From NCBI GenBank assembly GCA_028288625.1, contig JAQBNI010000148.1, positions 26,695 to 90,694 of the forward strand: a DNA stretch of 64,000 nt, given 5' to 3'. The stretch comes from Bacteroidota bacterium (GTDB taxonomy: Bacteria > Bacteroidota > Bacteroidia > Chitinophagales > JADIYW01). The notes beneath the pieces are model-generated. The model searched no databases, was not told the origin of the DNA, and saw nothing but the letters and a program-made list of their open reading frames with translations. Shown here piece by piece: positions 29,524-52,135 of the stretch (positions within the stretch are counted from its first letter, which is position 1; every line of letters starts with the position of its first letter). Position numbers and translations under genes: made by a program.

Positions 29524-32500
29524 ATGACAAACGAGCAAATGCAGGAGATTTTACAAAAATCTCTTATAAAAATAAAAAGCTTAGAACAGGAATTAGAGCA
29601 AGCTAAGGCGGGCGCTTCTGTTGCGCAAGCCCATGTGCCGAAGAAGGATCCCGTGGTAGTGATCGGTACCGGCGTGCGCCTGGCTAACAATATCAACAGT
29701 ACTTCCAAATTATGGAAATTGATCGGGGATAAAAAAAGCGCCATAGGCAGAATTCCCAAAGACCGATTCGATGTTGACCTGATATATGATGCAGACGCCA
29801 ATAAAGCAGGCAAGACGAATTCCATGTACGGCGCATTTTTAGAAAATGACATACGTGCTTTCGATGCAGAATTTTTCAGTATTTCTCCCAGGGAAGCAAA
29901 ATCCATAGATCCTTCCCAGCGGATGATACTGGAAGTGGTGTATGAAGCATTTGAGCGTGCAGGTATCGCAACAGATAAACTGAAGGCGAGTAATACCGGT
30001 GTATATATTGCACTTGGAAACTGCGATTACATTTCCGCGCGCTTCCGGAGCGGCAACCTGGAAACAGTAGATCTTTATGATACCACCGGTATATTTTTCG
30101 GAACGGCAGGCGGAAGGGTTTCTTTTCTCTACGATTTCCAGGGAACAAGCTACAATGTAGACGCTGCGTGTGCGTCTACGATCTTAGCGGTCCATCTGGC
30201 AAAGGAAGACTTGCAAAAAAAGGTGATCGATCTGGCAGTTGTTTCATCGGCTAATTTATTGCTGACCCCGGAAGCATATGTAGGCTTAAGCAAATTAGGT
30301 TCATTATCATCTACGGATCAATGTAAGGCTTTTTCAGATGATGCGGATGGATATGTAAGAGGAGAAGGCTGCGGTGTGGTGCTCCTGAAAAGGCTGAGCG
30401 ATGCAGAAAGAGATAATGATAATATTGAGTTGCATATCATAGGCTCTTCCGTAAAGCATAATGGCAGTAGCAATGGCTTTACCGCCCCTAACCCGGAAGT
30501 GATCTCGAATACTATAAAAGATGCGATCAAAGAAGCCAATATCGACGTGAACGATGTTGATTTTGTAGAAGCACATGGCATAGGTAACCGGTTTACAGAT
30601 GCGGTGGAAGTGCAATCTATTCACGAAGGTTACAAAGGAAGAAACAAGCCTGTTTATGTAGGTTCGGTAAAAGCGAATATCGGTCACCTGGAAGCAGGTA
30701 CAGGCATGCCGATGTTGTTTAAAGTGATAGAAGCGATCAAACACAAAACGATCCCGCCGCAAATAAATATCAATGGACTCAACAGCGATGTAGAATGGGA
30801 TAAGATTAATTCCAGGATTGCTACTGAAGCATTGGATTGGACACGCGACGACGGCAAACCGTTACGCGCCGCAATCAATCTCTCCGGCTACAGCGGAACC
30901 AATGTGCATATGATCTTTGAAGCACCAAAGCCAAAGAAAGCTTCGGATGAAATAAAAGGACCGTACCATTTTGTGATCAGCGCTAAAAATGCTGCCAGCT
31001 TAAAACTGTTAGCGCAGAAATATATAGATGAAATGGAAGAATTCGGTAACTGTACTTTAACGGAAATGTGCTATACCTTGCAAAAAGGAAGAAATCATTT
31101 CGATCATTCGCTATCCATTATTGCTCACCATAAGCAGGATATTACAGAGGGATTAACGGCATTTTTACAGGAGGAGAAGACAGGTAAATATGTGCTCTCT
31201 GATCCGGAATTATATCGCAACACGGAAGTTGCATTTTTATTTACAGGTCAGGGTGCGCAATATTTCGGTATGTGCAGGGGATATTATGAGAATTTTGAAA
31301 TATTCAAAGCTATCGTTGATGAATGCGAAACGATGCTGAAACCTTATCTAGAATATTCCATCAAAGATATTTTATGGAATGAGACCATCGATAAGAATCT
31401 CATCCATCAGACAAAATACACACAGCCTGCTTTATTTGTGGTAGAGTATGCCTTATCTAAATTATGGATGCAATTTGGTGTACGTCCATCGGTATTGATC
31501 GGGCATAGCATTGGAGAAATTGTAGCGCTTACGGTGGCGAAAGCTATTTCCCTGCCTGATGCATTAAAACTGGTCATTGCCCGTGCTGCCTTAATGAATT
31601 CATTACCGCAAAATGAAGGAAGCATGGCTTCGGTTTTTTGTAATGAAGAAGCGTTAAAGCCATTTTTACAGGATGCCAATGTAGATCTTGCCTCAATAAA
31701 TTCTCTTAAGAATTGCACGGTTTCAGGAAGGAAAGAAGACATCGCAAATTTTGTTGAAAAGCTGAAAGAGCACAACATCAGGGCAGTGGCATTAAATGTC
31801 TCTCATGCTTTCCACTCCAGGTTAATGGAACCCATACTGAATAAATTTATTGCTTTTGCAGGACAAACAACATTCAGGCAGCCTGAAATACCGGTGATCT
31901 CTAATTTAACCGGGAAGGAAATTACAAAGGAAGAACTGAGTGCGGATTATTTTGCAAGACACATTCGCAACGCAGTCCAGTTCTCGGATGGCATAGAATA
32001 TTTGCAAAAGGGACTTAATGTGGAGGTATACCTGGAAGTGGGTCCCAATCCGGTGCTGATCAGTTTAGCAAAGCAGACTAATACTAATGCCAATACACTG
32101 TGGCTGGCATCGGCTCGAAAAGATATAGAGGATGCGACTTATTTTCATGAAACTTTACGGCAGCTTTACTGTGCAGGCATTGCAATACACTGGGATCAGC
32201 TCTATATAGGTAAGAAAATAAATCGCGTGCAATTACCTACCTATGCCTGGAACTGGAAGGTGCATTGGGAAGATCCTGTTTTTGGCAATCAGTTCACAGT
32301 TCACAGTTCACAGTTCACAAAAGAGAAAAAACAAAAGAGCCGTGAACCGTCAACCGTGAACGGTGAACCAAACAAAAAAGCTACTCGCGACACACTGCTT
32401 GCGTATTTGCAATTAGAAGCGGCGAAAGTACTCGGTTTGGAAGCGGGGCAAAAAGTGGATATCCATAAGCCATACCGCGAGCAGGGATTTGACAGCATGA

Positions 32501-32793
32501 TGAGCGGAGAGTTCTTAGGCTTAATGGAAAAGCATATTGGCGCTGAATTAAAGATGGATATTATTTACCAATACAATACGCCAAAAGACTTACACCAATA
32601 CCTGATCGATACGTATTTTGGCGGCGGCAGCATCGATACTTCACAAGCCATTACCATTGCGGATATTATGTTCAACCAGGAAATGGAGGCAGTCCATACC
32701 GGCGATTGGCATGAAATAAAACCCCATGATAATGTATTGATGAAATGGTTTAAGAAATTTGATAAGCATATTCCGACAATTAAAAACCAGTAA
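29524..32793 (+). CDS. Type I polyketide synthase, KS-AT-ACP
   Basis: N-terminal coiled coil; KS: DPVVVIGTGVRLAN, NVDAACASTILAVH (Cys codon 30169-30171), EAHGIGNRFTDAVE, NIGHLEAGTGMPML; AT: FTGQGAQYFGM, LIGHSIGEIVALTVA, HAFHSRLMEPIL; ACP: YREQGFDSMMSGEFLGLMEKHIG. No KR/DH/TE seen. Confidence 0.96.
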   Translation: MTNEQMQEILQKSLIKIKSLEQELEQAKAGASVAQAHVPKKDPVVVIGTGVRLANNINSTSKLWKLIGDKKSAIGRIPKDRFDVDLIYDADANKAGKTNSMYGAFLENDIRAFDAEFFSISPREAKSIDPSQRMILEVVYEAFERAGIATDKLKASNTGVYIALGNCDYISARFRSGNLETVDLYDTTGIFFGTAGGRVSFLYDFQGTSYNVDAACASTILAVHLAKEDLQKKVIDLAVVSSANLLLTPEAYVGLSKLGSLSSTDQCKAFSDDADGYVRGEGCGVVLLKRLSDAERDNDNIELHIIGSSVKHNGSSNGFTAPNPEVISNTIKDAIKEANIDVNDVDFVEAHGIGNRFTDAVEVQSIHEGYKGRNKPVYVGSVKANIGHLEAGTGMPMLFKVIEAIKHKTIPPQININGLNSDVEWDKINSRIATEALDWTRDDGKPLRAAINLSGYSGTNVHMIFEAPKPKKASDEIKGPYHFVISAKNAASLKLLAQKYIDEMEEFGNCTLTEMCYTLQKGRNHFDHSLSIIAHHKQDITEGLTAFLQEEKTGKYVLSDPELYRNTEVAFLFTGQGAQYFGMCRGYYENFEIFKAIVDECETMLKPYLEYSIKDILWNETIDKNLIHQTKYTQPALFVVEYALSKLWMQFGVRPSVLIGHSIGEIVALTVAKAISLPDALKLVIARAALMNSLPQNEGSMASVFCNEEALKPFLQDANVDLASINSLKNCTVSGRKEDIANFVEKLKEHNIRAVALNVSHAFHSRLMEPILNKFIAFAGQTTFRQPEIPVISNLTGKEITKEELSADYFARHIRNAVQFSDGIEYLQKGLNVEVYLEVGPNPVLISLAKQTNTNANTLWLASARKDIEDATYFHETLRQLYCAGIAIHWDQLYIGKKINRVQLPTYAWNWKVHWEDPVFGNQFTVHSSQFTKEKKQKSREPSTVNGEPNKKATRDTLLAYLQLEAAKVLGLEAGQKVDIHKPYREQGFDSMMSGEFLGLMEKHIGAELKMDIIYQYNTPKDLHQYLIDTYFGGGSIDTSQAITIADIMFNQEMEAVHTGDWHEIKPHDNVLMKWFKKFDKHIPTIKNQ
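32290..32370. repeat. Palindromic repeat in coding sequence: (AGTTCAC)x4 ... GTGAACCGTCAACCGTGAACGGTGAACC
   Basis: Direct heptamer repeat 32291-32318 and inverted arm 32342-32369, within the PKS AT-ACP linker. Confidence 0.9.
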
Positions 32794-52093: not shown

Positions 52094-52135
52094 TTTCATT
52101 CATCATTCAACATACATCATTCATCATTCATCATT
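52094..52135. repeat. Low-complexity CATCATTCAACATACATCATTCATC repeat
   Basis: CATTCATCATTCAACATACATCATTCATCATTCATCATT; reverse-complement form GAATGTTGAATGATGTATGATGAATGTTGAAT occurs at 2866-2898. Confidence 0.75.

Follow-up and report, generated by a model that had tools for sequence, protein, structure and literature searches.

A heptanucleotide hairpin in the linker of a polyketide synthase gene

The window, a stretch of 64,000 nt that forms part of the 3.71-Mb draft genome studied here (161 contigs), carries a polyketide synthase (PKS) gene whose open frame reads through a conspicuous repeat. In this tract at 32290-32370, (GTTCACA)x4 is followed by a loop of 23 nt and then by an array of the GTGAAC type in inverted orientation, and the whole lies between the AT and the ACP domains that are recognised by Pfam. 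The features of the locus, all on the forward strand, are:

29524..32793, +, PKS gene, 1089 aa, KS-AT-ACP, with the tract in frame (ORF, translation; Pfam ketoacyl-synt, Acyl_transf_1 and PP-binding; orthologues of similar length in 7/7 congeners)
31234..32172, +, AT domain, aa 571-883, upstream of the linker (Pfam PF00698; coordinates computed from residues)
32290..32379, +, coding stretch from the tract, peptide QFTVHSSQFTKEKKQKSREPSTVNGEPNKK, aa 923-952 (sequence, translation, orthologue alignment)
32291..32319, +, left (F) arm of four perfect heptamers, (AGTTCAC)x4; the arm bounded by GTTCAC is 32292-32318 (TRF, inverted-repeat search)
32319..32341, +, hairpin loop, 23 nt, not common to other copies of the family (inverted-repeat search, comparison with other copies)
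32342..32368, +, right (R) arm, GTGAACc GTCAACc GTGAACg GTGAAC (sequence, unit parse)
32416..32604, +, ACP (PP-binding), aa 965-1027, downstream of the linker (Pfam PF00550; coordinates computed from residues)

At period 7, TRF found 4.3 perfect copies at 32290-32319 and a second, degenerate array at 32340-32369. The two arms (32292-32318 and 32342-32368) are 27 nt long each, 85% complementary and 23 nt apart according to an inverted-repeat search. For the RNA, a fold of -28 kcal/mol is predicted (z -5.06), which none of 200 shuffles equalled, and the DNA fold has a z of -3.2. Sequence, TRF, folding and Pfam assignments therefore agree with the in-frame palindrome in the AT-ACP linker that the initial annotation had described. 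Within the window, AGTTCACAGTTCAC occurs four times with at most two mismatches, compared with 0.27 expected occurrences. The window also contains two mutually reverse-complementary period-7 arrays between genes, (GAATGAT)n at 2867-2898 and (TCATTCA)n at 52096-52135, which belong to a heptamer family distinct from the GTTCAC and GTCCAC families described below.

A dispersed family of heptamer tracts

In the whole genome, GTTCACNGTTCACNGTTCAC has 8 exact matches and 89 matches with at most three mismatches, and its reversed control has none, which excludes that the array occurs only at the PKS locus. Among the GTTCAC matches, a second subfamily with the unit GTCCACN became apparent, for which 81 matches with at most two mismatches were counted genome-wide, compared with 0 for the control. 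When overlaps were merged, both families together amounted to 60 tract sites. Open frames of 100 aa or more contain 33 of them, and in 29 of these 33 cases the protein is recognised by Pfam, NCBIfam or orthologues; this number does not include the sites in the ORFs L060, L085 and L309, which have no family or orthologue support, nor the site in L058, LptE, near a probable signal region. The repeat had been described as being of an intergenic type, a description that is not supported, as about half of the copies are predicted to be coding on the basis of open frames and family matches.

The tract-bearing proteins comprise the PKS, a BtuF-like binding protein, NadE, Fmt, PyrD, TrpF, a SucB-type E2 (two tracts), ThiE, PurD, ValS (two tracts), MutY, AnmK, a chorismate-binding enzyme, UbiD, methylmalonyl-CoA mutase, two ABC-type ATPases, asparagine synthase, an acyl-CoA dehydrogenase with an SCP2 domain (two tracts), PrmC, PriA, an M28 peptidase, a class I tRNA synthetase, a polysaccharide deacetylase, a carboxyl transferase and a DUF4271 protein. 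Similar tract peptides recur in unrelated proteins of this set, such as SSRFTVHSSR...TVNSELSSVN in PyrD, TVNGELSTVN in PurD and SPQSTVHSEAVDSGLSSVD in ValS.

Period 7 dominates also when no particular unit is presupposed: a period scan of 464 kb gave 23 tracts at period 7 and 0-6 at other periods, with the harmonic 14 as the sole exception, and it detected further heptamer families in this genome, for example ATTCAAC. A second ThiE-like gene (L153, contig C76:1-900) has (ATTCAAC)n in the loop in which the copy on contig C133 has a GTTCAC/GATCAC hairpin. In the E2 subunit of a 2-oxoacid dehydrogenase (L075:1263-2663, contig C131), several tracts of both subfamilies lie in flexible linkers and encode the peptides SPQSTVDSPQ, SPQSTDDSPQ, TVDSGQSTVD and TVNREPLTVN.

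Arm order, unit composition and loops

Neighbouring arms that are at most 60 nt apart have an almost invariant order: 15 of 16 such pairs consist of a GTYCAC-type arm (F) followed by a GTGRAC-type arm (R), the opposite order does not occur, and one pair is direct. Both orientations are present within 90 nt at 17 of the 60 sites, and the other 43, many of which have one arm only, lack such a pairing. Among about 50 four-unit arms, the unit parse assigned 15 to the composition RRVR and 8 to RRRR, V being GTCGTC, GTCATC, GTCAAC and similar variant units. RRVR is common to intergenic and coding copies and to both subfamilies. No loop sequence, on the other hand, is shared between copies, and loop length varies between about 1 and about 60 nt, so that the period-7 arms are all that recurs.

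The variant unit has a consequence for coding copies, because three consecutive GTGAACn units generate a TGA that closes every frame. In the right arm of the PKS tract, GTCAAC stands where this TGA would arise. Nevertheless, stop avoidance had to be rejected as the sole origin of V, and frame keeping cannot be its only cause, since intergenic copies also have V, as does the GTGGAC subfamily, in which no TGA arises.

Heptamers in the orthologous loops of congeners

Orthologues were obtained by protein searches from seven congeners (G001-G007), which at 65-79% protein identity are too distant to resolve single events. All seven have an orthologous PKS of similar length with a linker at the position of the tract. 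Compared with the study genome, this linker is of equal length within one residue in G006, G004, G002 and G005, three residues longer in G003, two residues shorter in G007 and nine residues shorter in G001. In the four congeners with near-equal length, the best match to four GTTCACA units lies at an identical offset (20-21 nt). In G006 it is a degenerate array in register, with 8/28 mismatches (0/2000 shuffles), and in G004 there are 10/28 mismatches (p 0.003 against shuffles); the matches in G002 and G005 are weaker, with 13/28 mismatches and p values of 0.08 and 0.10, respectively. No array was detected in the linkers of G001 and G003 when four-unit matches were compared with shuffles. The array of the study genome is the most regular one among the PKS orthologues compared. 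The arrays at the same offset indicate that the array predates the split of these species, and the recent insertion into the PKS linker that had initially been suggested is difficult to reconcile with a linker that is present in all seven congeners and that in four of them has near-equal length and an array match at the same offset.

Other proteins give a mixed picture with respect to length. Relative to the congener orthologues, a net insertion is absent from PurD, from the ABC ATPase and from BtuF, so that the tract takes the place of a loop of the same length, PyrD, ThiE, AnmK and MutY are longer in the study genome than in most congeners, and the NadE loop is variable in length throughout the genus. 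The units that occupy orthologous loops are specific to the species: GTCGACn is present in the PurD and NadE loops of G006, GACTCAYn in the ThiE loop of G006, CTCAAATn in the PyrD loop of G007, and CTGAAATn in that of G002. GTCGACx3 arrays amount to 18 in G006, 1 in the study genome and 0 in four congeners (G001-G003, G005), whereas GTTCACx3 with at most one mismatch occurs in none of the seven congeners. In 40 congener loops of six genes, the autocorrelation at lag 7 has a mean z of 1.57 (t 4.3); the runner-up is lag 6 with a mean z of 0.42 (t 2.3), and the remaining lags are near or below 0.2. The loops were picked because the study genome has a tract there, and the lag-7 signal of the congeners is independent of that choice.

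Distribution beyond the genus

Among 60 relatives, GTTCACx3 arrays (at most one mismatch) were found in one other genus of the family, represented by G010, in which inverted arm pairs were not detected. The heptamers of G010 (L100, L101, L104, L109) occur within longer intergenic repeat blocks with recurring phrases, for example ATACGAATATCGCTGTACTAAAAAA and AAATTTGGAGATGTG. By eye, the acyl-CoA dehydrogenase/SCP2-type protein appears to have tracts at two corresponding places in the study genome (L304:154-1692) and in G010 (L097), and these tracts appear to be GTCCAC in the former and partly GTTCAC in the latter.

In the phylum, GTTCACx3 is present in 12 of 396 genomes. The reversed control motif CACTTGN is itself arrayed in G156, G176, G168, G191, G234 and G337, with up to 27 matches on one strand, and period-7 arrays of varying sequence are therefore generic. 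In 84,980 genomes, the palindromic form was found in 61 stretches, against a chance estimate of about 0.05; these stretches belong to Planctomycetes, Methylomirabilota, Desulfobacterota, Nitrospirae, Patescibacteria, Clostridia, Chloroflexi, Acidobacteria and Bacteroidota, have a GC content of 32-73%, and several of them lie in frame in long ORFs. Two Nitrospirae sequences (L249, L287) have in-frame heptamer palindromes shortly before a histidine-kinase-like motif (EISVEDTGIG and EISVIDTGTG), apparently in the same loop. A horizontal spread of one GTTCAC element across phyla was rejected as an explanation, because the reversed control forms arrays in several other Bacteroidota and shared descent is thus not needed. 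Carriage by phages found no support either, as 2.9 million viral contigs contained two F-R and three R-F palindromes, with 0 for the control and 0 for GTCCAC.

Relation to known repeat systems

The nearest kind of known repeat is that of the bacterial heptanucleotide repeats (PMC4679880, PMC4692102, PMC2700814). STRR and related heptanucleotide repeats, such as the Calothrix/Nostoc heptamers, GGGAATC of Xanthomonas, TAACTGA of Beggiatoaceae and GGACCGG of Geobacter, likewise are tandem units of 7 nt that are species-specific and dispersed in the genome, with two to six units per set. In the study genome, too, period 7 is commoner than other unit lengths, and the arrays are dispersed with a genome-specific unit. 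When TAACTGA is read as GATAACT, it falls into a GTNNACN-like register that resembles the variant units of the study genome. TAACTGA repeats are direct and mostly intergenic, and those within ORFs are mostly at the ORF ends (PMC4679880), whereas half of the sites described here are inside conserved enzymes, many arms form inverted pairs, and other heptamers occupy the same loops in congeners. With 33 of 60 sites in open frames, the family is not mainly intergenic. We take a mainly intergenic location as a usual property and not as a strict criterion for STRR-like repeats, because coding heptamer families are on record (PMC2700814).

A precedent for a change of units at one site is the P6b stem-loop of the cyanobacterial tRNA-Leu(UAA) group I intron, in which one of two heptamer classes occupies the site and the class has shifted repeatedly (PMC4476775). 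Both the hairpin made of complementary heptamer arrays and the replacement of one class by another at the same site have their counterpart in our tracts, but the P6b stem belongs to the RNA of a group I intron, while the arrays of the study genome are predicted to be translated in unrelated proteins, here in the coding sequence of a PKS. Our literature search returned nothing on the motif itself or on coding heptamer palindromes in Bacteroidota.

Rickettsia palindromic elements (RPEs) form families of about 150 bp with a conserved sequence and peptide, and they behave as insertions. They are palindromic repeats that lie in frame in unrelated genes and are tolerated in the protein, as recounted in PMC10969869, which cites Ogata et al. 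2000. The in-frame presence inside unrelated protein genes is shared by our tracts, and the analogy to RPEs that the initial annotation had drawn holds to the extent that a genome-wide repeat, often a hairpin, occurs between genes as well as in frame in linkers and loops of many unrelated genes. Membership in the RPE class is not supported. The arms are only about 27 nt long, the loops are unrelated, there is no conserved element of about 100-150 nt that would be common to the copies, and several tracts, including those in the PKS, PurD, the ABC ATPase and BtuF, replace a native loop without net length change. PyrD, ThiE, AnmK and MutY are longer in the study genome, and the lengths thus point both ways with respect to insertion. 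The tetranucleotide CGTC, which is found at one end of RPEs (PMC3733652), was not detected at the termini of the arms in the unit parse and occurs only inside variant units (GTCGTC). REP and REPIN sequences are also short dispersed hairpins, some of which are inside genes (PMC3733652). REPs differ from the tracts in having a terminal GTAG and RAYT genes (PMC3733652), as the tracts have period-7 arms, no GTAG tag and no linked Y1 transposase among the genes examined.

Proposed origin and turnover of the tracts

How can such arrays have come to occupy the loops of so many unrelated proteins? The tract in the PKS linker is probably a copy of a dispersed, STRR-like heptanucleotide family (unit GTYCACR / YGTGRAC) that is old at many loops and whose units turn over by species under selection for an open frame. 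Arms of about four units, often paired to F-arm/loop/R-arm hairpins, occur in intergenic DNA and, frame and fold permitting, in the linkers and loops of proteins. Congeners have degenerate or differently spelled heptamers at the same place in many loops, where the array is thus older than the species. According to this turnover model, units of 7 nt may be gained, lost and homogenised by replication slippage together with template switching, or by conversion between dispersed copies, and the dominant unit would thereby drift between species, to GTTCAC and GTCCAC in the study genome and to GTCGAC in G006. Selection would purge frame-closing copies and those that interfere with folding, the loops and linkers would tolerate the resulting sequence, and no function at the sequence level would be needed to maintain the arrays. 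The turnover of units itself is deduced from a comparison of species with no more than 65-79% protein identity. An active spread of palindromes into coding sequence, as originally envisaged, agrees less well with the data than turnover at old sites.

Several observations count against this model, namely the F-then-R polarity in 15 of 16 pairs, the frequent RRVR composition, the greater length of PyrD, ThiE, AnmK and MutY in the study genome, and the lack of a PKS array in G001 and G003. As slippage alone does not predict the polarity or RRVR, a defined unit could still have been dispersed, and the longer proteins would fit insertion. One alternative is a palindromic element that is mobile in the manner of RPEs or MITEs, in which a transposase acting in trans moves whole F-loop-R units that are tolerated in frame in genes. 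The fixed polarity (15 versus 0), the RRVR arms that intergenic and coding copies of both subfamilies have in common, the added length at the four proteins, and the presence of the same units in one other genus of the family (G010) together with their absence from congeners would agree with such an element. We nevertheless consider it unlikely, because every copy has a loop of its own sequence and length, the two orientations do not occur together within 90 nt at 43 of 60 sites, paired arms are absent from G010, and no net length has been added to PurD, the ABC ATPase and BtuF, nor to the PKS linker, which is equally long in four congeners. A suitable transposase is likewise not indicated. Y1_Tnp genes are present in all genomes tested, including equally the congeners that do not have the repeat, and the best Y1_Tnp gene of the study genome has no tract in the surrounding 1.5 kb or so on either side (three weaker matches were inspected in part), nor do those sampled in congeners and G010 have one nearby. 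On the basis of the genes examined, mobilisation by RAYTs was therefore rejected.

Alternatively, the arrays could have arisen purely locally, with the polymerase slipping on the sequence of each loop independently and thereby creating period 7 without any exchange between sites. Unrelated heptamer arrays are indeed common, as seen with the reversed control in several Bacteroidota and with ATTCAAC in the study genome, and in most genomes, according to a report discussed in PMC4679880 and PMC4692102, no long simple repeats are more frequent than heptamers, for which slippage was given as the explanation. It is, however, quite improbable that independent events account for two unit sequences that recur at 60 sites of one genome, with GTTCAC arrays in 0/7 congeners, and for the recurring RRVR arm order. 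A regulatory network, in which selection maintains the arrays as mRNA hairpins or as sites that bind protein or RNA, also where the copies are coding, might explain the strong hairpin (z -5.06); binding-site roles have been proposed for the TAACTGA heptamers (PMC4679880), and heptanucleotide families of Geobacter have been annotated as putative global regulatory elements (PMC2700814). We regard this as very improbable, since the units differ between congeners at the same loops, the enzymes whose structural loops contain the tracts are unrelated and do not have them at a common distance from the gene ends, and many sites have one arm only.

Implications

Roughly half of the tracts lie inside loops of ordinary enzymes, and related species have different seven-base units in these loops, which suggests an ongoing rewriting of protein segments by a DNA-repeat process. 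More tentatively, and with some reservation on our part, a genome-wide drive might rewrite loops of unrelated proteins in concert: a new heptamer would replace the old one at many coding and non-coding sites in each species, and the affected segments would co-evolve via the DNA repeat and not via protein function. Conserved-looking peptides call for caution, as they need not mean homology; SSQFTVHSSQ and TVNSELSTVN, for example, are found repeatedly in several phyla, in proteins that are unrelated. Because the orthologous loops of seven congeners hold different or decayed heptamers, the origin, the turnover and the tolerance of coding repeats can be tested with existing genomes. The family may offer a measurable case, outside Rickettsia, in which a DNA-repeat process and not selection at the protein level would set the sequence of loops in essential enzymes, among them PyrD, Fmt, ValS, PurD and PriA.
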